Below, one piece after another: positions 9,133 to 49,154 of a stretch of 64,000 nt of DNA. How positions within the stretch are numbered: the first letter of the stretch is position 1; the number at the start of each line of letters is the position of its first letter. The notes below the pieces were generated by a model, which did not search any database, was not told the origin of the DNA, and saw only the letters and a list, made by a program, of their open reading frames with translations. The translations under genes and the position numbers were made by a program. This stretch comes from Watersipora subatra (Eukaryota > Bryozoa > Gymnolaemata > Cheilostomatida > Watersiporidae). Location: contig NC_088717.1 in the NCBI RefSeq assembly GCF_963576615.1, positions 27,817,213 through 27,881,212 on the forward strand, read 5' to 3'.

Positions 9133-12100
9133 ATGTCTGTCTCAAAGGTAAGACCTGTATAACACAACATACAGTACTGTACTCAGTAATGTTACCTTTC
9201 ATTGCATATCAAAACTACCAAATAGGAAACAAAGGTTATACTTTTTTTCATTACTTTTTAATATTTACGTAAATAAAATTTCAACGGTTTTACCGGGCGT
9301 TTTGCATTAGATAATTTCCTAAGGTTCCTATGACCTTCTTAGCATGCGTTGCTAAGATTCAAGTCAAGCGACAGACGGCAGGCCATGTAGGGTGCAATAT
9401 AGGGAGTCTGTTGCGCCGCTTGGTCTGCACTAAAGAAAAAATGCTAAACAATACACGTCAAAACAGTTCTATTATTGGACTGTAAAAGGTGTTGATTTTT
9501 TAAATTTTTATCACTAATTGAAACACTATTTGATCTCCATCATTATCGATTGATATAAGTATGGAGCCACCCAACCAATTGTTTAGCCCAATTATCCATT
9601 TTTTATTAAATTTCATTGTTTTGCAAAGTGTTTAGTTAAAAAATTCAGGCGTTATAATATTTCCCAGTTGTTCCTGGCTTTTACCAATTTTTCCTACTGC
9701 CCTGGGAAAAACAGTTTTTCTCGGAAAAAATGTCAACCCTGCTTCATTACTTGTCGTTCGTTCTCGTATTTTCAGTAACTAACGACATGGTATTCACAAT
9801 AATTATTAACTTTATATTTCTAACAATTATTTACATATTATTAATAGGAATACCCACTGGGTCTGATTCAAGTAGTATTGCATCAATTTTTTACAGAGTT
9901 GATTGTATCGGTGCAGTGAAAACTGAACACTGTTTGATGAAAGGTCAATTTTTTGCAGATCTCTCTTATCTAGATGACGATGATCTGAACCAACAAATAG
10001 GTCCTGTTGCGTTTAATGGAGCCGATGAGAAATAGTAAGCAAGTTTATTGTTGCATAACTCAATGTTATTCTTACGTCTCCTGTGTACACAGGTTGGTGA
10101 GAGATAATGGTAAAGTGAACAGAAGAGTGAGAGGCTGGTTACCTAATGTGAAGGCTGTCAAAGACAATATCTTTCTGATAAATACGTTGTCGCGCACTTT
10201 GGAGACAGTCAGGTGTAAACCAAGACAAATTCCCTTTCAGCTCTTCTACTGAGTGCTGCAGCGATATAAGAGATCATAGACAGAGGTTTGTTGTCTATCT
10301 CCAATTTTCCTTCATTAAATTGTCAAATAACGTTTGTTTTCCAGCGTGCGTCCATTTTCATTAGCTACCTGACCAGCTATGTATTAGTTCCTTCCTAAAT
10401 TATTTACAATTTTTCGCACGCGGTGCCGAAATGAACGATAAAAACCACCTTGAATGTGTGTAAAATGTGTGTATTTTAAAAAGGAAGAAATAGCATTTAG
10501 TGTTTAGCATTGTATGAATTGTTTCATTTTGCATTGCACATTTTATCAACGAAACATGAAAGTGGCAAGGTCAGTCTGTAAGGAAGTCAAGTGTATTGTG
10601 GACAATTTGCAACACGTTTTATTCATAGCTATTGCTATTAACTTATTGAAGAGATACTCATCTTCACATCGATAATGCGTGTGCAATTGACATTTCATTA
10701 GCTTTTGTACAGAAAACTTTAGGGAAACTAGTACGCAGGAAACTAGTACTTTGTAACAATATAATTAGTGTCGTGTTTGGTCCACTCTTACTTGTACAAG
10801 ATTAAGAGTATTAGCAGTTTGCTGCAGTCTGTTAGTGGTGACTGCTTCCGTGTGTCAATATTTTTCAAGGTTTCCACTCCTCCTACCCTCTATTGGCAAC
10901 ATTGTTGTCACCAATGATGACTTGCAGCTTACATGATAAAGTGAAGTTCCTTACGGACCAGGTATGAGTCTAGGGCCAGATTTGTTATTTTAAGCTGTTT
11001 GCATAATGGAGAACGCAGAAAGATTATTTCTAAACACTATCAAATTTGCCAGGTTTTTCTTACAGTATGTCCGTAATTATCAAAACTGTTGGCAGTCTTA
11101 GCAGCTTTAAAAATTCAAAAGTGTCATGTAAAAATGTGATGCTGCCTATATGGCTAGGTAGTCAGCATTGTCTCACATTGAAAGGGTCATTTCTGCATGA
11201 ACAGTTTATTAAAGGTGAACTGACAACACAAAGTTTTTGTTAGGCTAATAACACTAGCAAATAACATAATATATTGAAGTTACATTAATATTTTGTTGTA
11301 TTTTAAACCAAATAACAGGTTTTATGAACACTTTTAAGCCATGAAAATAAATAGAGATTCGTGATCTTGGTAAAATGGTGACCGAAGACGGCTGCGACGC
11401 TATGTACTTATATTAAAATTGCTCAATTTTTCAACTAGATTATTTAAAATCAATTGTCTGTTCATGATCCTTATTTTAGAAAACAGAGCATGCATTTATG
11501 TGTTTCGAACAGATGACTTGCGAGAATACCCAACTTTTACACACACTTGTGAGTTTCATATTTGTGTTAAAGAATAATTCTGTTGTAATTTGCGCTCCAC
11601 ATGACCTGCATTCCACATGATGTATGTTCCATATGATGTACGTTCCACATGATGTACGAGCTTGCCAGCTTGAGGTGTAATTCTCTAGAGCCAGCGATCA
11701 AAAGTTAGTGCGAACGTGTATATATGGCAAAGGCTTTCTGTATTTTTTGAATCTGCCTCGACCTTGCTTAATAATTATCTGCCATGTTGGGTAATCAACA
11801 ATGTAGTGGTGACAGGTGATTTGATGGGGTGACTTTAAAATTGGTGACTAGATGGGGAAATGTGTTAGAATTGTGGTCAGAAGTCCTTTTGTCTCGTGTC
11901 TCCACATTAGCCAATCATGGCGTTGACATGTTAATTCATTAAGCTGAACAAAATGGCGCCTTGAACGAAAACTCAGCTCCTTACAGCCGTACCTCGATAC
12001 GCGAGTGCCTCGACATGTGAACACTGCGCATCAACTTGCTCTTATTTCATTTATCCTTGAAATACATCAATCTTTTGAGATACCAGCATAGACGCCAGTT

Positions 12101-13646
12101 CACGGTGTCCACTATGCGAGTAGAGTGATCGGTAAAAACAGTTTGTTTTCCATGGCCACCATCCAGAACCAGCCTCCGTGTTATATAATATCTTTACCAT
12201 GTAATATCATAATACCCTTTTCATGTTATATATAATATAGACATTTTTGGAGTTTTCTAATTCTTGCCTAACATCACACGTTTACTCATATTATGTTGTA
12301 ATCAAGGTGTTGTTGAGTTCAGTTTATAATGGTTTTAGCCAGAAATCGTGGGACAATATGCACCTGAGAGGTTTTTCTGTATCATACCCAGTTTGATTAG
12401 TCAGATCTATTCACTTTTTGTTACATCGGTTTGAAGATTGCATTTTAGATATAGTTCTCTCCGTCTGTAGCCTAGGTTCCTATGATTTCAATGTAAGTCA
12501 GTATTTTGTTTGAGATCTTACCTTGCACAGTTTTCCTAGTTGCTTTTGTAGCAATAATCACTTGGTGTGTCTTGTGGTGACAAGTTGTTAAATTACGAGA
12601 AAAGAGATGACAGAGTGTGTGGGGATAAAGGCCTATCATACCTGTGTATTCATGCCCTAGGTAATAGGACGAGCAGTATCTATGGCATGTCTTCAGGAGT
12701 CGACAACTCTCTCGCAAGAGGTACCTACGCTGTCACGTCTAATGGATATTCCTTTCTGCCACGAGTCTTATGTCTATTATAGGTACGCTGTCATGTGACT
12801 TGTTCACCATACGTTCATCATATTATCGTTCATCATCTATCTTTACTTTTCAAAAACTCCAGCAGATCCAGGTTTGATGTTATCATTGTTATTTTATAAA
12901 TGATTTCTTAGTTATTCATTGGCGAACATCCTTCTTTTATAATCTCTATAATTTATGCTCTCTGACAGGCAAGTCTTATAGTTACTCTCAAATTTATTAA
13001 AATTTTTCACATTTTTCACTTGTCTGCTATAGATAAGGAGTCATTTAATTTTATATTGGTGCACGCGAGTTGTGTGCATGCTCCAGAGTTGCTTAAGCAT
13101 TGAAAAATAAGACATGTTTTAGTAATAGGTCTGCAAGGATTTATTTTTAACTGTTGGTTGTTACGAAAGTCAAATGTGGCATTGCAAAAAACTTGACATT
13201 CAGTTGTATTTGTAGCTGAATAAAATAGCACAAACATATGATTAGTTGGTAACAGCCTCACTTCTTGAAGCCTCGAAAAATAACTACAAATTTGCTTGTA
13301 TTGTGTGAGGACATCATTGCGATGTCATCCACTTGGTCACACAGGTTTGAAGGTGTTAAGCCGGCCTTCGTTAGTATTGTGTGTATCTTAATGTGACATC
13401 GCTAGCACTTAGTGGAAGAATTAACTGACATGCTTAAAACTTTAATGCTCGGCGATAAAAAATGGCCAACCGTTCATATGAATAGATCACATTTCTAGTG
13501 TATTTTTTTTAGTGTCGCAAATCATATCTCAAAGTTTTTCTCCGCAGCAGTTGGATCCTGGCAGAACGAGCCAATTGACAGCCTTGGACACAACAGCTTC
13601 GAGTGGAAGCATCAAGGAATCAGATGATAGGCTCATCCTTCTCTAG
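9133..13646 (+). CDS. Probable small coiled-coil protein gene, model incomplete
   Basis: Candidate exons: 9133-9147 (ATG in an ACCATG context, MSVSK, donor GTAAGA), a segment ending near 10034 (DDDDLNQQIGPVAF), 10093-10212 (LVRDNGKVNRRVRGWLPNVK then DNIFLINTLSRTLETVR), 10928-10961 (SLHDKVKFLTDQ) and 13548-13646 (QLDPGRTSQLTALDTTASSG, ending DDRLILL and TAG). The last three join in frame through GT/AG borders, and the LINTLSRTLETVRSLHDKVKFL stretch has the heptad look of a coiled coil. I do not recognise the family. Joining the second segment's GTAAGC donor to 10093 creates a TAG codon, and the first exon does not match its phase, so an exon is missing or the acidic segment is not part of the transcript. 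Confidence 0.45.
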
Positions 13647-13649
13647 CTT

Positions 13650-15790
13650 TTGCCACTTGCGCTAGCGAGGATAGCGTTGCTACCAGTTGTCGCCTTCATG
13701 CAACCATAACTAAGGTCCGGTAGACTTTTCTCAGCATCTTTTTGATGTGCATGTGTTTAGTTTAAAGAATCAGGTTTTGCGTTGCTTAAACATTTTAAGA
13801 AAAGAAAACCTGTGATTTTAATACAGATTCAATCACAGTCTACGACGTCGTTGTGCAGCAATACGTTTATCACCATAGCTGCATACGTTGCTGCTTTTCC
13901 CAGTATATGTTTAATGCACTCTCCACTTAACAGCCCGTGAAGGTCTACTAGTCTGAATAATTGGCATTTGGCATACGAGTTGTAAGATAGTTAATATTCT
14001 GTATATTTCAGCGTGTCTGACATCTTTGGTAAAAACTGAACCGTCACATAGGCGCCTATTCCAATATAGAGTACTCGGTTGGAGTCATCCGCTCTTTCTT
14101 TTACTCCAATAATGTAAGTAACATGGGTGCCCTAAGTTTTACCGTACCAAATGAATTCACTGATCATATTCTTGTATTGATCAATGATCATGTATGATCA
14201 CGGCCAAGCATTGTTCTTGTAATGAATGTGTTAGTTTCTACTCCGGGTCACAGAATGCTATTCATCTGGACACTTCCCTCATTTGGGTTGATAAGTAGAA
14301 ACTGTTGAGGAGGTTGCATACATACGCGTTGCTAACAGTACCACACTGTTGGATAGCCATAGGTCCCTAGCTATAGCTGCTAGTAATATACTTAATTAGG
14401 CTTGCTTTCTTGTGGCAATGCAGGGCTGTGTTTTAGATTATAAGAGTTTAAACAATGACGTCAAAACTCGTTAGCCGTGGCGGTTAAAAAATGGATATAT
14501 ATTGGAGGCGTACTGCCACGCCTCCAATTGATAACATATTACTGAGACACTAACTTTCACCTTCTAAAAACCCACATCAATAAGTAGCTAGGGTTCCTTG
14601 ACTACAACGACTTTCCATTCTTTACTTTGTTGGTGAATCCCATATATTAGTAGTTTTCCTTTCATAAATGTGTAAAAAAAAAACCCAGTTTTTCTTAGCA
14701 CTGGCTGTAAGTTTTACAAAGTGTAAAATAAATTCAGGTCGATGCAAGTGTATGCAAATTTTCTCAATGTACGTCGCCACCTAAAGTGAGGCTTTATATG
14801 AAACGATGGTAACATGATTGTCTACACTCTTCTTTGTTCTACTCAGGTGCAGGGTACTTCACCTACAGTATCTGCTCCGTGTCAGTGGTTACATACAATC
14901 GGGAGGAATCTGCTTGCATGCAACCAACAAACTCTCAGCATTTTATTATCCAGGTAGAGCAAATAATCTTCCCAGTCACCCTGTTCTACGGTCAATTGAG
15001 ACTAAAAGTTGGAGAAAAGAGACAGGGCTGTAGCAGAAGGAGATCGACAAACTTATTTGACTCACTTGTATAAGCTGTGTTCAAGCTATGTGTTCAAAAT
15101 GGTCACATGTGAAATGTTTGCTCTGCTAAAAATGTTTTGACACTAATATGGGTTAGTAAAGCATTGCAGAGAAAGATTTGAGGGCAGACAGTCTTGAACA
15201 GTCAGAAAGCTCGCAATGAAGGTTAGCATCAAAGACGACTGGCCAAGCAGATGGTGCTAAATATTTCTGATGGTTTTTGTGTTTCTGCATGTATTGTAAC
15301 CATTGACAATGTCACTAGTTTTTAAATATATATATATATATTCGTAGCCATGATAGGTAGTATCATGCCATTTGGTAGCGTAATCATCACCGCTATCTAA
15401 ACTCTGGTTTTGATGGATCACTTGAACTGACTTTCTCTTGCTCGTACAAGTCAGTTTTTACTGCCAAGAAGCAAACATCAATGGTTGCAATGAGCTTGTG
15501 TTCCACAACTACGTGCTAGCTTCAATAAAGGACAGCTCAAAAAAGATTTGCTAAACGTGAAACTACATTTCTCGAAATTGCTATAACATGGTGTTTCTCA
15601 AATTTATTTATAAAATACAAATCTTGAGTGATAATATTGTAGTGTCTCCAATAGAATGCTGTCCACAATAAAACAGCAGTGCGCAGCTCACATTTGTAGG
15701 TCCGCCACGGCTTGAGAGGTAAGTTACTACTGGTGCGAGTGATTTTTATTGTACAATATTTTTAGAAACGAATCTTGCATAATTAGCAAC
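13650..15790. other. Spacer without a supported gene
   Basis: A splice-like segment at 14848-14959 (GAGYFTYSICSVSVV in one frame) has an acceptor and a GTAGAG donor, but no partner exon or family was recognised. A divergent copy of repeat family A begins near 15340. Nothing else stands out before the CRE-rich satellite. Confidence 0.35.
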
Positions 15791-15796
15791 TATCGG

Positions 15797-16508
15797 TGAC
15801 GTCACATTCGTATTCGAAATTACTAGTTACGACGTCACACGTTCAATTGTATTAGTGACGTCATATCCAGTTTCAACATTACCGGATATGACGTCACCGG
15901 TACGATTGTATTAGTGACGTCATATCCGGTAATTTTGAAACCGGATGTGACGTCACACAATCGTACCGGTGACGTCACATCCGGTTTCAAAATTACCGGA
16001 TATGACGTCACTAATACAATCGCACCGGTGACGTCACATCCGGTTTCAAAATTACCGGATATGACGTCACTAATACAATCGCACCGGTGACGTCACATCC
16101 GGTTTCAAAATTACCGGATGTGACGTCACTAATACAATCGTACCGGTGACGTCACATCCGGTTTCAAAATTACCGGATATGACGTCACTAATACAATGGT
16201 GCCGGTGACGTCACTTCCGGGTTCAAAATTACCGGATATGACGTCACTAATACAATAGTGCCGGTGACGTCACATCCGGTTTCAAAATTACCGGATATGA
16301 CGTCACCGGTACCATTGTAAAATTACCGGATATGACGTCACTAATACAATGGTACCGGTGACGTCATATCCTGTTCAACATTACCGGATATGACGTCACT
16401 AATACAATTGTACCGGCGGCGCCATATCGTTTTGAAAGTTACCGGATATGACGTCATCAATAGAGTGTTCGTGACGTCAGTAATGAATGTATTGATGACG
16501 TCATTGCG
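15797..16508. repeat. 61-bp minisatellite with 23 perfect TGACGTCA sites
   Basis: The unit contains ACCGGTGACGTCACATCCGG, then TTTCAAAATTACCGGATA, then TGACGTCACTAATACAAT. The period is 61 bp in the central block (15961-16290). I counted 23 exact TGACGTCA octamers in about 710 bp, roughly two per unit. The left part (about 15855-15960) runs in the opposite orientation to the rest, so the block has an inverted centre near 15960. TGACGTCA is the full CRE palindrome bound by CREB/ATF bZIP factors, but the count may simply follow from unit amplification. Confidence 0.95.
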
Positions 16509-16509
16509 G

Positions 16510-17220
16510 ATAAATTTGCGTGACATCAAATCCATTTATTTTACAAACAGACACGCTGTCGCGAACAATTTCATTTGTGAACCATCATGGAGTTATTTTA
16601 ATCTCATGGCAGTTTAGGTTAATCTCGCCACTAAATTTTACAAGAGCTCGAGAGTCAAATGATAATGCTACAAAGGCTAGTTTTGAGGTAGAAGCGCTGA
16701 TCACGAAGCATTCTACTGAGGGTTAATTTATTAAACACTGATGAGAGTGATCAAATTTTGTTATGACAGTCTCAAAATCAAATTACGACAGCTTCCTGAA
16801 AAACGGCAAGAGTTTGTCAAAGTCTGCCTGGCACTGTGGTGAAGTTAAGTAACCATTAAACTTCAATAATAATGTCATTTTAATTTCACAAATTCCACGT
16901 GCTGAACTGCTGAACTTGGAATTAAAAAAGCATATGTGAAACACAGATTGGCTCGGGGAAATTTATTTAGATTGCTGTTATACGTAAAAAACGTTCCCCT
17001 CCTAAGTTTTAAACACACCATATTTTAAACAACTTCCTTTGCAAAAAGTTTAGACACTTCTGTGACACCTCTATTTCTCACTGTCTATAATGAGCTATGA
17101 AGCCAACAACTTAATGAACACATTATAATTACCATAGTAGATGTTCTATTAATTAGAATTAGAATTGACTATTTATGCATGCATATACTTTGCTGCCCCC
17201 AAATAGAGAAACTCGGATGA
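16510..17220. other. Spacer with no supported feature
   Basis: AT-rich sequence with only short frames. I see no repeat, splice pair or conserved protein. Confidence 0.4.
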
Positions 17221-17224
17221 AGCT

Positions 17225-17565
17225 CACAAACAAGTCACAATCGAGGATTTCTACCACACCCACCACCAGGAATTGCTAAACATATTATGGAAATAGTTAC
17301 TTTTCCATTTCCATATTGCCATAATTTTATGGAAATGGAAATTTTATATTAGAATTACGGAATTGTTATGGAGATGGAAATAATATGTAAACGAATTATG
17401 GAAATGTTATGGAAATGGAAATAATATGAAAATGACTTATGGAAATGTTATTGAAATTGTGACAAACACCGTAATCCCTGACCTCCACACCCACCAACCC
17501 TCACACACACAACAAAAACATTGTGTTTTGGTGGGTGTGGTGGAAATCCTTGAGTGCCGGACTAA
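17225..17565. mobile_element. Fold-back MITE with internal TTATGGAAATG repeats
   Basis: GAGGATTTCTACCACACCCA near 17243 is matched in reverse complement by TGGGTGTGGTGGAAATCCTT near 17532, giving terminal inverted repeats. Between them the word TTATGGAAATG(TT)ATGGAAAT recurs several times (17285-17450). No target duplication was confirmed. Confidence 0.5.
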
Positions 17566-17995
17566 GCTAGCCTTCGCTCACAAATGGCGGAAGCTGTTAA
17601 ATGACTGCAAAAATTAGTGTCTGTTTTATGCAGACCGTTTATTACACATAGAAGTATAGAAAAGTCAAGTAAGATTTCACAGCAGAGAATCTGAGGACAG
17701 CCTTGATTCCTATTAGATTTGTTTGCGTGATGTTAGAAAGTTGGTAAGGAAAACATGCCACACTTAGATTCATGATATTTATATTTTGTGTGCATTTAGC
17801 AAAAAAGCCAAAACGCATTCTTTATTTTGGTTAATATCGATTCTTTCGGAAGGTTTTAAAAATTAGACTTTGACTAAGCCATAGCCTTTGGGCTAAGAAA
17901 GACTAAAAGCCAAGCCGCAGACTTAGATGTCCACAGTCTAAGGGTTCACATATTTCCTAACCATTTATATGGTTATGAGGATATAGGGTTGTACA

Positions 17996-18063
17996 GATCA
18001 TAAACGAACAGATAAAGATGGACTGTAGGCCACTGTACCATCTTTATCAGTTCGTTTATGATC
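17996..18063. repeat. Strong short hairpin
   Basis: GATCATAAACGAACAGATAA and its inverse TTATCAGTTCGTTTATGATC enclose a short loop, forming a stem of about 26 bp with one mismatch. It could be a tiny MITE or a structured transcript; nothing identifies it further. Confidence 0.6.
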
Positions 18064-18559
18064 TATTGATCTAGTGTTTAGAAGTTATCTGTGTCTACCT
18101 ACATTACAACTATATATGTTTGTGATTATGTATGTGTAGCATTCCATAGATAATTATTATATACTATATATATTATTATAACCTTCAAATTTATAGCACA
18201 TGATTTGATAGCATCATTGCACTAGCATTTGAGCTAGCATCTTTGTTCGGCTTACAATGGATTCAATTTAGCTGCAAACTGAAGCAAACATGATGAGTGC
18301 ATTGCGATTTTATGCAAAATTGTTAAATATAGTTACAAAATAAAATATGCCTTCCAATTTAGAATGAAATAAATTGATGATAGAAGGATGATTTTGTAAA
18401 ACTTTGGTTTTGAAATTGAGAGTTGTTCTCTCTTCTTAATTATGTTTTTAGAGTATTATGTCAAGAGGTCACGACTTCAAAGTGTGTTGACGAGGTAAAA
18501 TAATCTAATAATAACTGTTATTAGAACTAAACCGTTCTAGTGTGCGCGCACTTAAGTCT

Positions 18560-18650
18560 GGGGGGCCACGGTCAGATCTAAAAAAGATAACGATTTGTGA
18601 GTTTCTATCCCGCAGTTCCTAACTCAGTTTGAAAAATGTGTAGCTGTGTT
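18560..18650. repeat. 85-bp inverted-repeat partner at the 5' end of the Ulp1-like gene
   Basis: The block containing GGTCAGATCTAAAAAAGATA and GATTTGTGAGTTTCTA is repeated in reverse complement at about 26085-26175. The first copy overlaps the putative promoter and 5' leader of the gene at 18636; the second lies some 7.5 kb downstream in the same locus. Confidence 0.7.
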
Positions 18651-21600
18651 GGCGATTGTATGCGAACAGTAAGTACCATGGAGGTAAGAAAATAGTTGGG
18701 TATAGCTTTTAAAAAAAACTTTTGACATCAGTGTTAAACTTCCTGCTCTAGAGGGCAATTTTTTTTTGCGTTTCTAAAGCAAGCGGCATCGTGGGGCCAG
18801 CATCGTGCTGCATGCTTGCAGTCAAAACTCTTCTTCTTGAAAATTAAGAATGATTACTGGCATTAAAGAATGGTTACTGGTGTTTTGCTGGTGCTGGAAA
18901 TGCCTAGATTTATTCTAGATGCTAGAAATATAAGGTATATAGCCTATATAAAAGAGTGATAAAAACATAATACATTGAAAAAAATGCCAAAAAGATTTAC
19001 AGCTCTTAATAAAATGTTACGCTGCTAAAAATAGATCCTAGACCGATGTTTTATAAGCAACTATGTTCTTGATGACAGTTTGTGTTGCAACAGTGTCTTC
19101 TAGTGCAGTCTGTTAAATTTCTAATTGTAATTTTCCTTCAAAATATTGGACTAAGTTTTAGATTTTATTTTACTTATTTTAGGTGGTAGATGTTGGCATA
19201 AAACTGGCGATATTCAAGTCGAAATCAACAATCAAGGTATGTTTTTCTGAGGTTGTGATTTAAAGTTGATGTGACGTGATGCTGTCAAAATATCTTTATT
19301 TCATTTAATCAGCAGTAAAAGTTCACCATGGGATTAATTTTATCATAATTTTTGTTACATCAACAAAATATGTATTTTATAAACTTACTATGCAACGCTT
19401 AACGAAGCAGAAAAGATCTTGTCATATTGTATTATTCGTTAACTTTTTTTACCTTTATCAAATGTTTATTTTCAGTTTCATGCTCTACTAATCCATGTTA
19501 GTCTCACTAACGCATTAGACCAGCCTGCTGACATTGTTATAGTACCAAGACATGATTCTGAGCGAAGTCACTACTCCCTAATGGTTAGTATTCTTACGCT
19601 GCACTTTTGGCACTTTTATACTACAAGACTATGTCATGATATTAATTTCGAGAACAATTAGTGCTGCATGGCTGTGCATACCCTAGAACACTTATATTTC
19701 GCTAGTATTTAGGTTCGTGAGTAGCATACAGAGTAAGATTTTGCTGCAACTTAATTTGGCGGATCTGATGAGTGCGAAAATATAGTGATGTGAAAATAAA
19801 TGCAGTAAAACAAACATAATTAGATTCCTCAGGTCCAGTTCACTAGTAAAAAAAATTTCAATTTGGGACTAGTTTGTATTTGTGAACCGCGGGTAGAAAT
19901 GTGTGTGCGATATCGACAATGCAACTTGATCGCTTGCTGCTATTTGTTTCTTGGACTATCAATGGAGGTCCTTGCCGCCGTGACTGATGTGGCACCAATA
20001 TTATATTTCAAGTATTTATAGCACGCGGTGGCCATGGCTCAAGGTTGTTATTGTTTTGGTTGGTAGTAAAACTCATCACTACAATAATTATTATTTAATT
20101 TTATGACTTTCCCTACACGACTTTCATCCTCATCAGTTACAAATTCATTGACTAAACTAATATCATCATCTTCCTCATTTGTCTTGGCTTTTCCACAGGC
20201 CCGTATTCCCTGGAGCGGCTGGCCGACTGAGCCGCCCCAACTTTTTAGGATTAAGTATAGTCAAACTCGGAGAACTCGCCCTCGAATAAAATGTAAAATT
20301 GTATCACGAACACTTGGTTAACTTGAACGGATTTGTTTGGTCTATTCCCACGCCATGATAAACTGCTTTAGATAACTCGACCTCAACATCATTAACTCGA
20401 ACAGTTATTTGCCCAACGGCTACGGGAACGGTTTTTATCGCTGTAGAATATCACTTTATTCCAAGCCATATAAATAAACGTTAACTTTTAATAGTTCTTG
20501 GGCGTCATTATTACCATGATCTGCAAAATATTTTTGTTAACGACTTTTATAAAGGTATGCAAAGGGTCAAGTTTTACCAAACATTCGTTTGGCAATGGCC
20601 TAACGAAAGAGTAAAAACCTTCGGATGAACTTAAAATAAAATCAGCCAAATTGATCTTTGTTAAAACGCTCAAAAGATTGATGCAAGTATTGATGTCTTT
20701 TTTCTGAGCGTTTCAACTGCGGTCAAGTTTAGCCTATTTTAATCTGAAAACGTCCTGGCAATCACATCACCTAAAACAAACAAATCTCAAAAAATAGAAA
20801 AAATGTTTATACTTTCCGATAAAATCTTTTAAAACTTTACGTGAGATGCCCAGTTGAGGCCCTACATGAAATAAACCTGTTGAGGGGCCTGATACTGCTC
20901 CTCCAAACCCCCAGATGCTCATAACAAGTCGCCTAATATTAGCTGCCCCAATTTGCAACCAGGGAATACAGGCCTGCTTTTCCAAAAGAACTTGTTATCT
21001 CGATTTGCTTTGCCACGCTGCTCAGTCGGTGTATTAACTATAATGAGCTTAGCAGAAATTGCCCAATGAGCCCACAGACAAAGGTTACCTGCATTTCTAA
21101 TATGACGATTTTATTGTGAATACCAATGAACAAAGCTATTTAATTTCGCGTTTTCGCTCGTTCGTTATGATAGTTTAGTTTCGCTCATGAAATTTTCGCG
21201 AGAGGATGACTCCGCGAAAATGCGAAAGTTAGATGACGCGAATACATAAGTGTCTTAGGGTAGCTACTATAATTGTTTTAAAAATTTAAAACAGCACTTC
21301 TTTTATATAGCGTGTAACTTGAATAAAATAACTGTTTTGTAGGCACGGGAATACTTGCTCTGCGTGTATCTATAACATGTAACTTGCATTAGCTTGCATA
21401 GCTTTATATACAAGTTGTATATGGTACTCTGTTTGCAGCTGGTAAATAGGAAACTTAGGAAAATTCATTAAATGGACTCTCTTTCTTACAAATAGCAACA
21501 GACCATTGAAAAAAGGTGAGCATGAAATACGTCACTAGGTTTGTCGATAAATCTTACAAAAGCAACAGTTATTGCCTTTGCATTCTAGCATAAATGGTTT

Positions 21601-24600
21601 AATCTAAAAACTCACTGTTAGCAACAATATTTGCAGCAAGCTTGTTTCTGTTGATGAGAGGTTTGCTGATTATGCTGTGACAGATAGTGAGATGGCGGCT
21701 ATGCAACAGAAAGATTGTGTAAGCTGTGGACTGTATGTTATCAAGGTGAGTGACATTCTCATTCGTGGAGGTCTCAAGACTTCAACAATTATCAGTAGGA
21801 AAGATCTGGTTGGATTATTTATCTACACATTAACTATTACTAGGGAACCTAGTCCTATTCTGTCAATTTTCACTGTTAACCACAATGTTTTTTCAGCAAA
21901 ATTAGTGTGATTCCTCGTAGGGGGTTATGCAATAATCTTGAACTTTCTAGATATTCGGCACATTTTTTGTTGTTGTAAACTTATTAAAGAATAATTCTAA
22001 GAATCTCTGTTTTTATGTTATTAATATTTTCAGCATGCACAACGATATGTTGAATCGTTTGAGCTAGAAAATAGAAAAGATGGTGATATGTCTTTAAATC
22101 CTTCCACATACCGTAAAGAATTATTGGCAAATATGAAGGTATGTGGAACAATAACTATTCCCAGCAGATTTAGCACATCTGTATATCTTGTATGTAAATA
22201 TATGTTAAGATACTTCCTCACTTATTTGGTTTAATTTTCTCAACCTGAACTAATAACTTTTTAACATTTTTGCATTGAATTTTGTTTTTAACCAGTTGTC
22301 TTTATTTATGTTAGGAAGCTGGTCGAGCATTGGCGGATATCAAGCTCTCTATTGAAGCAGGTAGGTTGAAGATGTAAGCCACATGTGGGCTATCAAGCTT
22401 TATATTTGTATCATGTTAATACATAAACATTATTTTACTGTGTTTACCAATCTAGAGCATGAGAATACTATTCTGATATCTTTAAATAGTATAGTGTTGG
22501 TATCTACAGACATTACCTGCTTTATATATATCTAATGCATGTTCTTAACCCTTTGGCTATGGCGCGCTTACGGCCGGGAAAATACCAGCGTTTGGAGGCA
22601 ATTACTAGGGCGATTTGAGCCTTCGACATGACTGCATAAACACTGCGGTAACTTACATCACAATTCTGGTAGTTACATAAATTAATATGCATGGAAAAGC
22701 TGAGAAATTTCTCTACAAGCTGATATTTTTTCTATGCAGATAGCTTGCAAATGCTTTCCAGCAAAAGTCTCAATTTGTTGAAGCTATTAATTTCTTTTTA
22801 TACGCCATTTTCAATTGTATTTTCCTAATTGATAAAGGTAATTGACAATGTTGTATAAATAATACTTGCACGGATTCATAGGTTCTCAACAATTTGCAAA
22901 AGAAATTGGTCGTCAAAGAGCATTGAAAGTGGAGTTATGAGCTCCGATGCATTGCGGTAGCGCCACTCAAAATTCTCAGTGCATGACTACAAAGACCAGC
23001 AAAAAATGGAGGCCTGACAATGTCGCCTAAACTTCGCTATAACTTACATGCAAATTGGAATAGAGCTATAAATGAATATGCCTTTGGAAGCTTAGAAATT
23101 TTTCAACAGGCAGCCATTTATTCCCAGCAAATCGTCCCTGCAAATTTATTCGTCTGTGAATATTTCTATCAAAATCCTTATGTGTCAAAGTTGCCACTTT
23201 TCTATCATAAAACATTGATAAAATACATTTTTGGAAGCAATAACTCTGTGAAAATGGTTTATGATAAGCATCTGCACGGTGTCATATGTTTGCAAGAGTT
23301 TGCAAAGAAACTGTTTGTCCAAGTCGTTCTTTCCAAGCCAGCAAGCTTTCATCTATAAATATGAATTTACCAGGCAGCAAAACAGAATATAACCGGTCGC
23401 ATATCATGGCAAAAACATCTTTTAACTTGAAAAATTTATTGGTCGCAGGCTGTTCAAAATTATCAGCAAAATGCACAGTAGAAAGTAAACTTGCTTCTAT
23501 TTTTCTTACTATTTTTAGTTTTATTAAAAATCAGCGTAGATAATAAAGGATTGTGGACCAGTAGGACAACAGAGTAGGCTTTTTGAAAATACTTATATGC
23601 AAAACTAAATAAATAACTCGTCAAATATCTTTACCATCAACAGGCTCCGAAGCATCGCAATGTTTTGGAGGCATATTTATTCGTTTCATTAAATATAACA
23701 TTTATAATGGCCGATGTTATAAAAAGCTTTAAATATTAAAAATACTTAACTGTTTAAAAATTTGAACTTACTCCTGCCAAGCTGTCAGCAGAATGTAATT
23801 TTTTTGGTGTCAAGTCAGCTCCTCTTTGAAATCCGTAAATACTCCCGGTTTCATCGCCGGCCGTTTCACTCTCACTTTCGCAATTCAATTCACCCTGTTG
23901 ATTTTATTTTTTACTTTCATCGTCTACCCCACATTCTTCTGACCTGATATCCTTTTCTTCACTTCCAAACCAGTCGATGTCTTCCTCTAAACAAACTTTT
24001 TAGCAGAGCTTGAACAACCGCTTGCGTTCATGATGAATAGATTTCCATAAAAGATCACATCTTTGCAAAGTGTATTGCTTGCACATGCGTATTTGGGATT
24101 ATTTATAGCCTCAAAACAGTAGTACAAAGCCAACAGAAATTGGTCAAATTACTAACTTTAAATTTTAATGCTGTTTTTTTAATAAATAATATATTTTAAA
24201 AAGGTCTATCGAAGGCCGAATTATTTCGGGATTTTCGGGATCCGTACGCTGAGACAATGCTCGTATTCCGGGCTTTTACGGATTTCGTAAGCAAAGGGTT
24301 AACTAGATCAAAACTTTGTGAAGTAGTCTGTAACATTTTCTATTTATTTATTTGTGTAATAGCCAAGGAAGAATCCACCAGAGAAAGAGCAGTGAAGTGT
24401 TTCACCACAACAGAAGATCATGAAGCTACCAACTGGAATGGTAAGGAGCTTACAGAAAACCCTGTGGAATTTTCTGCTGTCTCACTAGATGCTCAGCTTA
24501 TGTATTATAAAATCAAGTACCTGAAGCGCTATAAAACACACTATACTAGTCATGGTGTATTTAATGTAGTTCCAGTCGAAGATTACAAACATTGTCGACA

Positions 24601-26321
24601 GGAGCATATATCTGGAATGTATGATGGTACTCAGATGGTAAATGAGACCATTTTATATTATCTTGAAGAGAGTAGCTTTGACTATCAGGTCATTAGTCGG
24701 CGACTTATTGGATTGAGTCCAGCTTTACCAGAAGCTTACGCGTCATGGTGTAAGAAGTTGACTCCAGAAGATGACAATAGTAGGCCATGTCCAGCATATT
24801 ATGGTATGGAAAAATCCATTACGCATAGCTAAACATGTGTTTTCCTGTTATGTTTTCCAATGTACACATGTATGCGGATAACTGGCATATCTTCAATATG
24901 TTTTAAAACAAAATTTTATTGTTTGTTCACACTGGACTATTATTATAGTGTATTACCTGTCACGTTAATAACTATTTGATGCCCTGATCCAGTAGTAACT
25001 ACTGTTTTATTAACTTTTATATTGCATACATTTACATAGTTTAGCCATCCTGTATTTCTAGTCAGTTTGTTGGCATTAGTGGAATATGCATCAAGGCAGT
25101 GTGTACTCAGCTGTACTCAGTGTGTACTTTTTCTTTATACAATTTTGCAACTTGGTGTATTCAACTTTTTCGACGGTTTTTCTATTTGGTACATATTATA
25201 CTTCGTTGAGAGATGCTATGTAAATCTAAATAATATATAGCTTTTACATACAACACACAATGATAATACCTTCTCATAACTCTAAGCTTTAGTTTGTATG
25301 AAGTCATAAAACTTTTATGTAGCCATGCTAATACTTGCTGTTCAAGTCCATGAAGTTGAAATAAGATAACTGTTTTGTAGCCAGGCTAATAATTGCTGAA
25401 AAGTTAGGTTCTAACATGTATTTAATAGAAATATAACTGTCTTGTAGCTGGGCTAATAATTGCTGAAAAGTTAGGTTCTAACATGTATTTAATAGAAATA
25501 TAACTGTCTTGTAACTGGGCTAATATTTGCTGAAAAGTTAGGTTCTAACATGTATTTAATAGAAATATAACTGTCTTGTAGCTGGGCTAATATTTGCTGA
25601 AAAGTCAGGTTCTAACATGTATTTAATAGAAATATAACTGTCTTATAGCTGGGCTAATATTTGCTGAAAAGTCAGGTTCTAACATGTATTTAATAGAAAT
25701 ATAATTGTTTTGTAGCTAGGCTAATATTTGCTGAAAAGTCAGGTTCCAATATGTATTTAATAGAACTATAACTGTTTTGTAGCTATGCTAATAATTGTTG
25801 AAAAGTCAGGTTCTAATTTGTATTGTAATTAGAAGAAAAAGTATAACTGTTTTGTGGGCAAGCCAAAACCTGCTGTGGTCATATAAAATAACCGCTTTGC
25901 AATGTAGTACATACGTAATAGTTTGTAATAACATGATCAATCTACAAGCTTTATTCAAGAGTATACTAAAAACCATTTACAACAACAGCCTACTACAACT
26001 ACGCAGTACAGTTAGCATTAGCAGTTTTGTAGTTCCGTAGAAACGACCTTGTCAACTTGCAGTTATATTGTAGGCCCCAAAATTTATTTCTGTGTACATT
26101 TTGCAACCGAGTTAAGAATTGCGGCTAGAAACTCACAAATCGGTATCTTTTTTAGATCTGACCAGGGGCCACAGGGCATTTTTGTGTCACTTTTTACCAA
26201 GGAGGCTCAAAAATAACGAGACTTACGTTTAATAGATAGATTACTTTTCCCATAGATTAAATATCCCATACTTTATTTAGTATACCTACTGGAGATATTC
26301 TTGCCAAGCAGTGATTGCCAG
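18636..26321 (+). CDS. Ulp1/SENP-like cysteine peptidase candidate, eight or nine exons
   Basis: Exons: 18636-18683 (or start at 18678, ACCATGG), 19183-19236, 19476-19583, 21496-21515, 21637-21745, 22034-22138, 22315-22360 and 24363-24803; phases agree at each join. HDSERSHYSLM resembles the H-W/Y-S-L strand that carries the catalytic His in C48 peptidases, and MQQKDCVSCGLYVIKHAQ resembles the Gln-x(5)-D-C-G-x-Y catalytic block; LNPSTYRKELL then recalls the SENP8 tail. The interval between His and Cys is short and the expected Asp strand is not visible, so an exon may be missing. The large last exon (MYYKIKYLKRYKTHY to TPEDDNSRPCPAYY) is unfamiliar. A possible ninth exon at 26281-26321 would end the protein (LPSSDCQ, stop). 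The role of deconjugating a ubiquitin-like protein is inferred. The exons at 29883-32344 may belong to this gene. Confidence 0.55.
20196..20982. mobile_element. 0.8-kb DNA transposon with nested pogo-like fragment
   Basis: The left end CAGGCCCGTATTCCCTGG is mirrored by CCAGGGAATACAGGCCTG at the right end, with inner matches GCCGCCCCAAC and GCTGCCCCAAT. Inside it, from about 20260, lies sequence shared with the pogo-like elements at 61-62.7 kb, including CAAACTCGGAGAACTCG, GATAACTCGACCTCAAC and GTCCTGGCAATCACATCACC. The element lies in the third intron of the Ulp1-like gene. Confidence 0.6.
22549..24298. mobile_element. piggyBac-family element with intact TTAA duplications
   Basis: The element starts CCCTTTGGCTATGG after TTAA (22545-22548) and ends AAGCAAAGGG before TTAA (24299-24302). 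Exact TTAA duplication and CCCTTT termini are diagnostic of the piggyBac superfamily. It fills most of the seventh intron of the Ulp1-like gene and stops about 60 bp before the next exon. Confidence 0.85.
23020..24015 (-). pseudogene. Decayed piggyBac transposase
   Basis: On the minus strand, 23282-23476 encodes LLPGKFIFIDESLLAWKERL, matching the piggyBac core around the catalytic aspartate (usual form xISIDESLxxFKGRL). Further upstream on that strand, near 23930-24000, an acidic stretch (CLEEDIDWFGSEEKDIRSEE) matches the usual acidic N-terminus. The frame is broken by stops and shifts, so no intact transposase is encoded. Confidence 0.75.
25330..25862. repeat. 67-bp minisatellite, about 7 copies
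   Basis: The unit contains TAACTGTCTTGTAGCTGGGC, TAATATTTGCTGAAAAGT and AGGTTCTAACATGTATTTAA. Successive unit starts at 25434, 25501 and 25568 give a period of exactly 67 bp. It lies after the large Ulp1-like exon. Confidence 0.9.
26085..26175. repeat. Inverted copy of the 18.56-18.65 kb leader segment
   Basis: Its reverse complement contains GGTCAGATCTAAAAAAGATA, CGATTTGTGAGTTTCTA and AACTCGGTT, matching the segment that precedes the putative first exon of the Ulp1-like gene. Confidence 0.7.
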
Positions 26322-27847: not shown

Positions 27848-29592
27848 TCAAGGATTAGGGTACTTTATTCACCCTGTCCCTGGATTCTTCTACTACTACT
27901 ACTACTATTAATAAAACTAGTAGTAGTGGTAGTCTACTACTAGTAGCACTAGTAGTTTTACCAAAAAGGATAAATATATTGCTTTTTATATGGTATCTGT
28001 ACAAACCTGTAATCCTTGCATATTGCACCGCTATACTGTTCAGGATTAGGGTCATATCTGGTACCTGGACAAACCTCTAGTCTAATCCTTGCCTATGGTA
28101 TGGCTATACTGTGTAGGATTAGCATCATATCTGGTACCTATACAAAGCTCTAATCTTCGCATAGGTTATACCTGTACTGTGCAGGTTTAGGGTCATATGT
28201 GGTACTTGTGCAAGCCTCTAATCCTTGCATATGGTATGGCTATACTGTGTAAAATTAGGCTCATATCTGGTACCTGTGCAAACCTCTAATTCTTGCCTAT
28301 GGCATGGCTATACTGTGCAGGACTAGGGTCATATCTGGTACCTATACAGACCTCTAATCCTTGCATATGGTATGGCTATACTGTGTAGAATTGGGCTCAT
28401 ATCTGGTACCTGTGCAAACCTCTAATCCTTGCCTATGGTATGGCTATACTTTGTAGGATTAGCTTCATATCTGGTACATGTGCAAACCTCTAATCCTTGC
28501 CTATGGTATGGCTATACTGTGCAGGATTAGGGTTATATCTGGTACCTGTGCAAACCTCTAATCCTTGCATATGGTATGGCCATACTGTGCAGGATTAGGC
28601 TCATATGTGTTACCTATACAGACCTCTAATCCTTGCATATGGTATGGCCATACTGTGCAGGATTAGGGTCATATGTGTTACCTGGACAAACCTATAATCC
28701 TTGCCTATGGTATGGCTATACTGTGCAGGATTAGGGTTATATCTGGTACCTGTGCAAACCTCTAATCCTTGCATATGGTATGGCTATACTGTGCAGGATT
28801 AGGGTTATATCTGGTATCTATACAGACCTCTAATCCTTGCATATGGTATGGCTATACTGTGCAGGATTAGGGTTATATCTGGTACCTATACAGACCTCTA
28901 ATCCTTGCATATGGTATGGCTATACTGTGCAGGATTAGGGTTATATCTGGTACCTGTGCAAACCTCTAATCCTTGCCTATGGTATGGCTATACTGTGCAG
29001 GATTAGGGTTATATCTGGTACCTGTGCAAACCTCTAATCCTTGCCTATGATATGGCTATACTGTGCAGGATTTGGGTTATATCTGGTACCTGTGCAAACC
29101 TCTAATCCTTGCCTATGGTATGGCTATACTGTGCAAGATTAGGGTTATATCTGGTACCTGTGCAAACCTCTAATCCTTGCCTATGGTATGGCTATACTGT
29201 GCAGGATTAGGGTTATATCTGGTACCTGTGCAAACCTCTAATCCTTGCCTATGGTATGGCCATACTGTGCAGGATTAGGCTCATATGTGTTACCTATACA
29301 GACCTCTAATCCTTGCATATGGTATGGCTATACTGTGCAGGATTAGGGTCATATGTGTTACCTGGACAAACCTATAATCCTTGCCTATGGTATGGCTATA
29401 CTGTGCAGGATTAGGGTTATATCTGGTACCTGTGCAAACCTCTAATCCTTGCATATAGTATGGCTATACTGTGCAGGATTAGGGTTATATCTGGTATCTA
29501 TACAGACCTCTAATCCTTGCATATGGTATGGCTATACTGTGCAGGATTAGGGTTATATCTGGTACCGGTACTGTGCAGGATTAGGGTACTAG
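27848..29592. repeat. 68-bp satellite, about 23 copies, with a 10-unit higher-order repeat
   Basis: The unit contains TATGGCTATACTGTGCAGGA, TTAGGGTTATATCTGGTACC and AAACCTCTAATCCTTGCC. Starts at 28983 and 29051 show the 68-bp period. Variant units marked GGATTAGGCTCATATGTGTT occur at 28592 and 29272, and the surrounding 28561-28910 matches 29241-29590, an offset of 680 bp or ten units. A CTACTACTACTA / TAGTAGTAG inverted trinucleotide tract (27888-27955) interrupts the left edge. Opposite-strand copies lie at 40740-41190. Confidence 0.95.
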
Positions 29593-40739: not shown

Positions 40740-41190
40740 GGCATTAATAAATCCTGCAGAATATAGCCATACCATATGCAAATATTAGAGACTTGTACAG
40801 GTACCATTATATAAGACCCAAATCTTGCACAGTACAAAATATAACCTATGCAAGTATTAGTGGATTGTACAGGTACCATATATGACCCTAATCCTGCACA
40901 ATATAGCCATATCATATGCAAGGCTTAGAGGTTTGTACAGGTACTAGATATAACCCAATCCTGCCCAGTATAGCATAGCCATCCCCTATGCAAGGATTAA
41001 AAGCTTGTACAGGTAAGATATATGATCTTAATCCTGCACAGTATAGCTATACTGTATGCAAAAAGTAGTGGTTTTTACAGGTACCATATATAACCCTAAT
41101 ACTGCACAGTATAGCCATACCGTATGCAAGGATTAGAGGTTAGTACCGGTATCATATATGACCCTAATCTTGGACAATATAGCTATACCC
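40740..41190. repeat. Diverged 68-bp satellite, inverted relative to the 28-kb array
   Basis: About six to seven degenerate units contain TATAGCCATACCATATGCAA and GTACAGGTACCATATATGAC, the reverse complement of the unit at 27.8-29.6 kb. Confidence 0.85.
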
Positions 41191-46681: not shown

Positions 46682-49154
46682 CAGGGGTGGGCAACCTTGT
46701 CAAGAAAAGGGCCATTTTGCAAAATGTAACTATTCTCGAGGGCCGCATCATACAACCCTGATTTGGTATTTTCTGTCTTTATTAAAATTTCATAAAGTAG
46801 CATACAATATACAACTTGAATACAATACAAGAATAAACGTGTATGTATTGGATTTATAAATGACAGCAGACAGTAGATAAAGTATGGAGATATGAAATAT
46901 TTTTATAATATTCTTAGTTAGTGAGAAGCTTGGTGTTGGATATTTTTAGCCAATTCGTTAATGTTAGGTTCTATTCTTGATGTGCACAGGCGCAAACTAT
47001 GCAGCAGATGACTGTCAGTCAGATTGCTTCTCAGTTTGCTTTTGATGTGCTTCATTTTGGAAAACAGTTGCTCACAGGTATATGCACTTCCAAACATGCA
47101 GACAAACCTTCTGGCAAACTGCTTTAAATTACAGTAATCTGCAGTTGGTAAGGACTTATAAATGTCAACTAGGTGCATCTCTTTGAAATTTTGGATGGGA
47201 ATGCCATCCTGTTGCAGCGCGTTCAGTTCAAGCTGGAGCTGGATAGCTGCTGAGCTTATCTCACAAGTACAAGGCAATAAAAAGATGGTCATTTCACTTC
47301 TGAGACTTCTGAACTTTGTAAAACGAGAGAAAATCTCCTCTCGAAGGACTGCCACTCTCTGACCATAGCTATCCAGGATCTCGTTGTTGCCATTAAAGGC
47401 AGATTCAAGTGTGGGAAAGTGATCAACTTTTTTTACGTAGACTTTGCTCATAGAGCTGAAGATCTCTTTCAAATTTTCGGAGGTGCTTAAACAGGTCATG
47501 TACCAACTTGTCTTGTCCTTGAAGCCTCACGTTGAGTTGAGATAATTTTTGAGAGATATGAATGCAAAGTCCATTTGCCAGAGAGGATCACACAGTTCTT
47601 GAGCCTCCTTTTGTTTCAACTGCAGAAATAAAATGATCTCATCTAGTAATAGCCAAAAACGTTGCAATGTTGATGCTCTGCTAAGCCAGCGAACCTCTGT
47701 AAAATAAACATCATCCCCAGACTAGCTGTCCAGGTGTCTCAAGAACTCCTGAAACTCTCTGTAGTTTAGTCCTCGTGAGCGTATGTAGTTTATTGTTTTT
47801 ACTACTACTGAGTTGACATGATCCATATTGATAATTTTTGTGCTCAGGTTCCCCTGGTGTCTGATGCAATGAACTGCAACAGCATCTGGCTGAAGTGCAC
47901 ATACTTTGGCTATAAAACCATTGTGACACCCTATCATGGATGGTGCACCATCTGTACACAGTGACACACATTTGCTGAAGTCCTCAATTCCCGTTTTCTG
48001 TAGTGTCGTCTGAACACTCAAATATATCTACACCTCTTGTAGTACCTTTCAACCTTTCATTACATTGAAATCCTTATCTACAGCTCGAATAAATACAGCC
48101 AGCTGTGCTGTGTCCCTGATATCTGTACTCTCATCAAATGCAAGTGAATAGCATTCAATATCACCCAGCTTCACCTTTAATTGATATGCTATGTCTGAGC
48201 CCATATCTTCTACTCGTCTGACTGTTGTGCGGCGTGAAAGAGATACATATATCTGAAAAACTTTTTAGCATTTGTGAGCACTTAACTTCAGCAAGTTTCA
48301 GTAAGCACTCTTTTACTATTTCACCATCAGAAAATGGCTTTTGGTGTTTGGTGAGAATCTTCGCAATCTCAAAGCTCACTATAGTACTGTCAATGTCAAC
48401 CTCACGTGATTGATTTAATACTTGCTGCTGCGCTTTCAGGCTTTTTGTCAACTTTTCTGTAAGTTGTATTTTCTCCTCTGTGTTGTATCTGCCATACTTT
48501 TCACCATGATTTGTTTCAAAATGTCTTCTAATGTTGTATTCCTTGGTTTGAGCTACTGATTTCTAGTAGATTAAATATACAGTCATGTTATGTACTGATG
48601 TAAACAAGAATTTATCCAGCCATTCAGTATTGAATTTCCTGTTTTTTTCAGCCACAGTTCTTTTTCTTTTAGTAGCCATGACTAGACAGCACTTAATTAT
48701 TAATCAACATTTAGGTAACTGTTAAAGTAAATTGACCAATAATGGGCAAGAACAAACACCAATCATCGAAAGGGAATGGCTATTAGTAAACAACTACATT
48801 ATTGCAGTGTATGCTATGTGTAAGACAAACCTGTAACTGTGATCTAAATACATGTATAAAAATATCACAGAACACGAATTGAATGATAAATAGATGGCAT
48901 CTTTTTAGTAAGTACATGTATGTACGTTATATAACACTACCTGCTAAAGTTTAAAGCCAACTGAAGATTTCAGTAGATGTGAGGGACACTACACTATGCT
49001 TTCAACAAAATCTCACCACTATTTAGCATTTTTTATATTTTGTGCATTGTACTCATTCAAACGCATCTATATATGCAAAATTCCTGGGAGGAGTTGAAGG
49101 GCCGCACAATAAATGGCAAAGGGCCACATGCGGGCCGCACGTTGCCCGCCCCTG
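46682..49154. mobile_element. Complete hAT transposon, 2.47 kb
   Basis: The termini are CAGGGGTGGGCAAC and GTTGCCCGCCCCTG (one mismatch). The flanking 8-mers ATCTACAG (46674-46681) and ATCTACAT (49155-49162) form an 8-bp target duplication with one difference. Subterminal GGGCCGC and GGGCCAC words match other hAT elements of the Charlie/ZBED type. The inside holds a decayed transposase on the minus strand. The right end lies about 95 bp before the first visible U2SURP exon. Confidence 0.92.
46918..48679 (-). pseudogene. hAT transposase related to GTF2IRD2/ZBED5/FAM200 type, frame-broken
   Basis: The reading starts near 48679 with MATKRKRTVAEKNRKFNTEW, followed by EYNIRRHFETNHGEKYG, the BED-finger-like N-terminus of this group. 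A stop interrupts before that block. Later parts shift frame: 48451-48161 (FSDGEIVKECLLKLAEV), 48021-47722 (CTDGAPSMIGCHNGF, the conserved transposase core) and 47499-46918 (TCEQLFSKMKHIKSKLRSNL, the C-terminal dimerisation motif). The domain order is complete but stops and shifts between blocks make it inactive. Confidence 0.9.

Follow-up and report, generated by a model that had tools for sequence, protein, structure and literature searches.

A dispersed element with a dense array of CRE octamers at mid-chromosome positions in the bryozoan Watersipora subatra, a possible platform for CREB/ATF proteins

Results

The array and its composite sites

The window analysed here is a stretch of 64,000 nucleotides (C10:27817213-27881212) of the 783.7-Mb genome of Watersipora subatra, in which contigs C1-C11 measure 46-79 Mb and the smaller contigs C12, C13, C14 and C20 each measure at most 1.1 Mb. 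It holds a tandem array of the CRE octamer TGACGTCA, set within a larger dispersed element and followed by a later insertion:

9741..15736, plus strand: left flank of the element, apparently noncoding, with copies on C1, C2, C5, C8, C9 and C10
14426..14848, no strand: segment with a SINE-like repeat (14700-14848) and a 24th TGACGTCA (14456), found in the copy at C2 35.49 Mb
15797..16503, no strand: CRE array with 23 TGACGTCA, in 59-bp units that consist of the core TGACGTCAYATCCGKTTTCAAAATTACCGGATRTGACGTCAC and a variable linker
15881..16044, no strand: inversion within the array, with 76-nt arms (15881-15956 and 15969-16044) that are 97% complementary and 12 nt apart
15883..16456, 11 on the plus and 7 on the minus strand: composite sites, 18 of the 23 octamers having CGGA at composite spacing (CGGANNTGACGTCA), with 0.00 expected from 100 shuffles
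16510..18564, plus strand: right flank of the element, common to the copy at C2 35.49 Mb
18565..26161, no strand: later, DNA-transposon-like insertion in the right flank, about 7.6 kb, ends approximate

An earlier sequence-only reading of this DNA had reported 23 perfect palindromes, and these are real: 23 exact copies of TGACGTCA were counted at 15797-16503, and a further one outside the array, against an expectation of 0.63 for the whole window (sd 0.76; maximum 3 in 100 shuffles). The unit length of 61 bp given by that reading has to be corrected, as TRF finds a period of 59 bp (15794-16306, 8.8 copies) and the octamer spacings mostly alternate between 33 and 26 bp (8 and 7 of the 22 spacings, respectively). 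Its estimate of about two octamers per unit agrees with our count, since the typical unit carries two that face each other, and the unit itself is nearly palindromic. The CCGG half-palindromes that it described as kept are also found, 28 of the 66 CpGs at 15794-16506 lying in CCGG and 25 in ACGT contexts; the CpG ratio is 1.91 in the array and 0.65 in the rest of the window. The inversion that it placed around the middle of the block is present, centred near 15962 in the left part of the block. Because the unit is nearly palindromic, flips of single units leave little trace.

The spacing between CGGA and the octamer is close to invariant. Fourteen of the 18 window composites form seven facing pairs, and among all matches to CGGA-Nk-ACGT with k from 0 to 12 at nine loci, k equals 4 in 736 of 744. 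One window site (16206-16219, minus strand) reads CGGAAGTGACGTCA, the published ETS-CRE word; it is the single composite with GGAAGT, the other 17 of 18 reading GGAT, so that the window departs from the preferred GGAAGT form of the ETS half. As judged from the letters, the match to the composite appears strong in its CRE part and fair in its ETS part. ETS proteins are an animal family, and profile searches of the genome matched 15 ETS domains and one CREB pKID.

Pairs of CRE octamers occur elsewhere as well, the CRE-pair pattern having 5623 matches genome-wide, of which those listed are on C1 and C2, so that further loci lacking flank homology may exist elsewhere. At C2 2.698 Mb (L048, 1501-2236) there is a TGACGTCA minisatellite of about 26 very uniform copies of a 28-bp unit, and at C2 34.6868 Mb another with an 18-bp unit, TGACGTCATAACCCAATG; both have unrelated spacers, and CGGA at composite spacing is absent from the 28-bp and 18-bp units.

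A dispersed element and a later insertion

The array forms the tandemly repeated portion of a dispersed element (approximately 9741-18520) that is old and apparently noncoding and whose homology spans, in window terms, from about 9741-9972 to about 18468-18564. Ten long copies were found through the left flank, namely at C10 27.83 (the window copy) and 32.08 Mb, C2 34.50, 35.49 and 39.51 Mb, C9 27.26 and 28.87 Mb, C8 38.57 Mb, C1 41.29 Mb and C5 29.25 Mb. Left-flank copies are 69-89% identical over 14850-15736, with weaker traces on C7 (33.93 and 34.56 Mb; 69% over about 300 bp). Together with partial copies found through the right flank at C1 37.09, C4 30.82, C7 37.30 and C5 32.64 Mb, whole or partial copies number 16, on eight of the 11 large contigs; C3, C6 and C11 gave short pieces and no element copy. 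Weaker and shorter matches off the chromosome middles (for example at C3 49.37, C1 31.79, C7 21.44 and C11 14.0 Mb) were set aside.

In eight other copies, the left flank ends at window 15729-15736, which is where the array starts. The right flank is shared in parts by the copies at C9 27.26, C5 29.25 and C10 32.08 Mb, and likewise in parts by the four found through it; it did not appear past the array in the stretches read at C2 34.50 and 39.51 Mb, on C8 and at C9 28.87 Mb. Besides the window, segment 14426-14848 occurs in the copy at C2 35.49 Mb; the remaining aligned copies lack it or nearly lack it. At C5 29.2508-29.3174 Mb (about 67 kb) the array is amplified in blocks that alternate with right-flank sequence, the blocks measuring 1.9-3.7 kb where read and their starts lying mostly 6-7 kb apart. 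Open reading frames of at least 70 aa in the left flank are as a rule interrupted by stops in one or more paralogous copies, for which reason a coding origin of the flank was rejected, and a search of the window for RNA genes returned no Rfam family at gathering score and no tRNA.

The insertion at 18565-26161 is missing from the C2 35.49 Mb copy. It has inverted ends of roughly 50 bp (GGTCAGATCTAAAAAAGATA...) and an 8-bp duplication, GGGGCCAC, both read by eye, and carries a DDE_Tnp_1_7 piece on the minus strand (23285-23530, E 1.1e-5), a domain of piggyBac kinship. The Ulp1-like (C48) fragment also lies inside it (21608-21907; PF02902, E 0.0034, 17.7 bits against a cut-off of 20.7), and, with the left-flank frames interrupted in copies, the neighbours between which the sequence-only reading had placed the array frame no locus. 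Elsewhere in the window, related 68-bp minisatellite arrays lie at 27987-29566 and 40750-41189, apparently in opposite orientation (units compared by eye), and the C-terminal piece of a hAT-type transposase lies on the minus strand at 46921-47526 (PF05699, E 0.00017, 21.8 bits against a cut-off of 21.4).

Conservation of the octamers across loci

Do other loci share the unit, and do the octamers outlast the rest of it, as the sequence-only reading had proposed to check? Related arrays were analysed at twelve loci, nine main ones and three with a 55-bp unit; unit lengths over the twelve are 55, 57 or 59 bp, and linkers differ. From the nine main loci 457 units were aligned, the C1 41.29 Mb copy being left out since it gave no units by the model, and the C7 copies at 33.93 and 34.56 Mb lying outside the arrays read. 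All twelve locus consensuses are free of octamer substitutions (gaps occur at two loci). With gaps left out, the consensuses of the nine loci have changed in 0 of 143 octamer cells and 0 of 72 CGGA cells, compared with 5 of 36 for the two bases between CGGA and octamer, 11 of 117 for the loop and 34 of 131 for the linker. Mean pairwise divergence over the 36 locus pairs is 17.8% in the flank, 40% in the linker, 12% in the rest of the core and 0.0% in the octamer. With the branch for C1 41.29 Mb removed, the flank tree amounts to 0.87 changes per site, which would predict 13.9 octamer changes where none is seen; this estimate assumes independence and a consensus that changes as fast as the flank, and about 100 bp of the flank stretch used for the tree belong to a short dispersed repeat.

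Within arrays, the intact fraction of non-gapped octamers exceeds at all nine loci what the rest of the unit would predict, the extremes being C5 (0.97 against 0.61 predicted) and C10b (0.50 against 0.44), with the qualification that the seeds of the unit model were units with perfect octamers, which biases it somewhat towards them. The second of the proposed checks thus also comes out in favour of the octamers, and at the consensus level they stand unsubstituted. A permutation test for octamer and CGGA together gives p < 0.01 in six of the nine loci and is not significant at C2a (0.055), C9a (0.095) and C10b (0.37). Since CGGA varies more than the two bases between within the C2a, C9a and C2c arrays, the case for CGGA rests on the consensus level.

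The 55-bp loci at C1 37.09 Mb (7 units), on C4 (5 units) and at C7 37.30 Mb (13 units) likewise have a consensus with no substituted octamer base and with CCGGAT kept, four octamer columns being gapped at C4. Deviation from it is 8-12% in the octamer, 20-27% in the linker and 7-10% in the bases between, these being no more variable than the octamer; 43%, 20% and 46% of cells, respectively, have lost the C of CGGA.

Sites are being lost in some of the copies. Among octamers with a single hit, 49 of 75 changes are CpG transitions, and the CpG ratio of the flank is 0.47-0.69; the octamer thus persists against a mutational headwind, and the CpG transitions are as expected if CpGs were methylated and arrays decayed. 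Small arrays are decayed, the fraction of intact octamers being 0.33 at C9a, 0.50 at C10b and 0.64 at C2a. The C4 piece has two perfect octamers and no CGGA-N4-ACGT, the one at C7 37.30 Mb has nine octamers and three CGGA-N4-ACGT, the C1 41.29 Mb copy has two octamers, and the 1 kb read at C5 32.64 Mb showed no array. Over the nine loci, octamer intactness rises with the number of units (Spearman 0.68, p 0.04) and falls as the remainder of the unit diverges (-0.67, p 0.05).

Chromosomal position of the copies

The 16 whole or partial copies lie at 0.43-0.59 of chromosome length. Eleven of 11 copies fall within 0.09 of the chromosome midpoint, a cut-off that was chosen after seeing the copies, and five further copies lie at 0.459-0.562. 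As controls, a SINE is this close to the midpoint at 6 of the 30 places listed, and a minisatellite in 11 of 35 among the matches listed. The copies differ in position from the controls with a Mann-Whitney p of 0.0002, or 0.008 with one worst value per chromosome. This mid-chromosome position would fit a pericentromere, without proving it.

A 98-bp satellite lies within about 0.4 kb of the element fragment at C5 32.64 Mb. Its matches are scattered over the first 308 kb of the unplaced contig C13, and among the 40 of 1809 candidates that were scored, the matches listed lie on four unplaced contigs. It is a candidate centromeric satellite (unplaced C12 and C13; C5 32.637 Mb) and was dropped as a centromere locator, as the matches listed on those four unplaced contigs do not fix the centromeres. 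At the contig ends we observed CCCCAAA repeats, the telomere-like motif TTTGGGG, at the starts of C3 and C4 (two of nine contig starts inspected); the usual animal telomere motif is TTAGGG, and TTTGGGG is unusual for an animal.

Discussion

What has kept the octamer in these arrays? At the level of the locus consensus the sequence of octamer and CGGA is fixed, linkers and unit length have changed, and base pairing is not kept; this retention at the locus level is the best-supported step of the argument. The explanation that we prefer, at a probability of roughly 0.4, is that the array is a pericentromere-type satellite which may act as a dense platform for CREB/ATF proteins, an ETS protein being a possible partner. 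A CREB/ATF-type bZIP dimer, possibly joined by an ETS protein, would bind the units, and the bound array would form a dense protein platform in chromosome-middle chromatin. Such a platform might seed heterochromatin or drive regulated transcription of the pericentromere-like repeats at mid-chromosome, and arrays that no longer turn over would lose their sites. Octamer intactness at nine of nine loci and the unsubstituted consensus favour a protein site, the sequence-only reading having named a sink for bZIP factors among its options. Against a protein platform count the GGAT in 17 of 18 composites, the decayed small arrays and the loss of CGGA in the 55-bp loci. That a complex of CREB/ATF and ETS proteins marks or regulates pericentromeric chromatin, and that this has kept the consensus over twelve loci and three unit lengths, would be a further and distinctly unlikely claim.

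Two alternatives are the main rivals, and each is compatible with the finding that larger arrays have more intact octamers. Possibly the array is a neutral satellite whose founding unit held the motif, with homogenisation within each locus keeping it and no protein needed. We consider this unlikely on balance, if the most credible of the alternatives. The loci share the element and so share an ancestor, within-locus homogenisation is strong in long arrays, and octamers decay in small ones. Moreover, TGACGTCA minisatellites with unrelated spacers exist elsewhere (C2 2.698 and 34.687 Mb, among the matches listed), and a reversed control pattern has 658 matches genome-wide against 5623 for the CRE pairs; these reversed-pattern matches and the other minisatellites indicate that palindromic 8-mers can end up in arrays. 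However, concerted evolution predicts octamer change at about the rate of the flank, and the expected 13.9 changes compare with none in 143 cells. Linkers changed freely over the same loci, and exchange between loci would be expected to homogenise the linkers too. The neutral option of the sequence-only reading is in this way weakened, the octamers being more intact than the rest of the unit. The other main rival, unlikely as well and next in credibility, draws on an analogy. The M26 site of fission yeast (ATGACGT) is bound by ATF/CREB and starts meiotic breaks, according to the accessible portion of the source (PMC2677671). If CRE-bound ATF/CREB started double-strand breaks here, units that keep the site would keep the array expanding, and arrays that lose it would freeze and then decay. 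Both correlations of octamer intactness, with unit number and with divergence, go in the direction that this predicts, 15 ATGACGT occur in the window array (both strands counted), and the inversion and higher-order copies are present. But the same correlations are expected from plain homogenisation, recombination would not by itself need CGGA, and in that portion of the source M26 action is shown in fission yeast, with none seen for animals (PMC2677671).

The remaining alternatives concern the element, the fold and the neighbourhood. As part of a noncoding DNA transposon, the array could be an internal block of transposase-binding sites that is kept while copies are mobile, and several observations are in line with this: long copies number ten and partial ones six, the array meets the flank at one border (about 15729-15736) wherever both were read, and arrays are decayed in several copies. 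Yet no shared sharp ends were seen among the copies (left edges at 9741, 9887 and 9972; right edges at 18468-18564) and no shared open frame, the array lies inside the element, about 5.9 kb from one edge and 2 kb from the other, and the copies found are confined to chromosome middles, which a SINE and a minisatellite are not; we regard the transposon as improbable. Selection on the folding of the dyad, as a hairpin or cruciform, is very improbable. Predicted single-strand DNA folds of three pieces are strong (z -5.3, -12.8 and -19.8), the last being that of the 136-nt piece 15895-16030 at -75.2 kcal/mol. However, stem changes at the locus level (pairs 9/34, 10/33 and 15/28) disrupt pairing, and no compensatory double change was found at any stem pair at that level in nine loci, double changes in single units occurring in about 1% at pairs 4/39, 5/38, 6/37 and 9/34. 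Since changes in the stem break the pairing, it is the sequence and not the hairpin that is kept, which disfavours the hairpin-forming fragile site among the earlier options. A local enhancer of the two neighbours named earlier is scarcely credible. In principle, closely packed CRE sites might activate whatever their context, but the array travels with the dispersed element and the right-hand 'gene' lies within the later insertion; with flank copies found elsewhere, the enhancer was dropped as the main reading.

Should a complex of CREB/ATF and ETS proteins indeed act on a CREB/ATF platform of this kind, the satellite would be a direct DNA address for the heterochromatin role of the ATF family. 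A natural mid-chromosome array in which the CRE sites of one locus can number up to hundreds would offer a sequence-based route and a testable system, in which the satellite motif, the partner half-site and their spacing can all be distinguished from a freely changing linker.

How does the array compare with known systems? The accessible portions of the literature on TGACGTCA or CRE and CREB together with satellites, minisatellites and pericentromeric repeats contained no such satellite. Like CENP-B box satellites, the array keeps a short motif in otherwise changing units. The pattern TTCGNNNNANNCGGG, which we take to be the core of the CENP-B box, has no exact match in the 53 loci fetched and, with one mismatch, occurs three times in the window against 2.58 expected, which is no enrichment, and identity with the CENP-B box was rejected on these grounds. 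Roles of the ATF family in silent chromatin are known from other organisms: in the parts of the sources available, Atf1/Pcr1 take part in nucleating heterochromatin at the mat locus of S. pombe (PMC12418378) and dATF-2 has a part in fly heterochromatin (PMC3444692). Common to these and to the reading proposed here is an ATF/CREB family member, a binder of TGACGTCA-type sites, tied to silent chromatin; the difference is that those parts name no satellite with dense CREs (PMC3444692, PMC12418378), and the word satellite is absent from PMC3444692.

The composite geometry has its closest counterpart in mammals. In the accessible text of Chatterjee et al. (PMC3464117), CGGA-N4-ACGT localises in human proximal promoters, and GABPalpha and CREB prefer it when both sites overlap exactly. 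That of He et al. (PMC4555227) adds that changes in the GGA core uniformly lower binding, that the ETS half is variable at its ends and binding to several of these end variants increases with CREB1, and that GABPalpha binds every single-base variant less well. Shared with the bryozoan array is the exact CGGA-N4-ACGT geometry, one window copy being the published word (PMC3464117, PMC4555227), and here CGGA and TGACGTCA are unchanged in nine consensuses as the two bases between vary. In contrast to the motif in mammalian proximal promoters that these texts describe (PMC3464117, PMC4555227), the sites here stand in facing pairs within a repeat that is apparently noncoding, their number per locus ranging from a few to hundreds, and they mostly read GGATAT or GGATGT, not GGAAGT. 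Satellites controlled by transcription factors are also on record, with mouse major satellite under PAX3, PAX9 and FOXD3 and human satellite III under HSF1, as stated in the part of the source available (PMC9324158). As there, a tandem repeat carries sites for a class of factors, here at a pericentromere-like position; factor action is reported in that source, whereas for the present array it is suggested by conservation. The factor class differs too, and the present array lies inside a larger element that is dispersed. Satellites with factor sites are thus already known, and the dense, facing ETS-CRE pairs described here are a variant on them.
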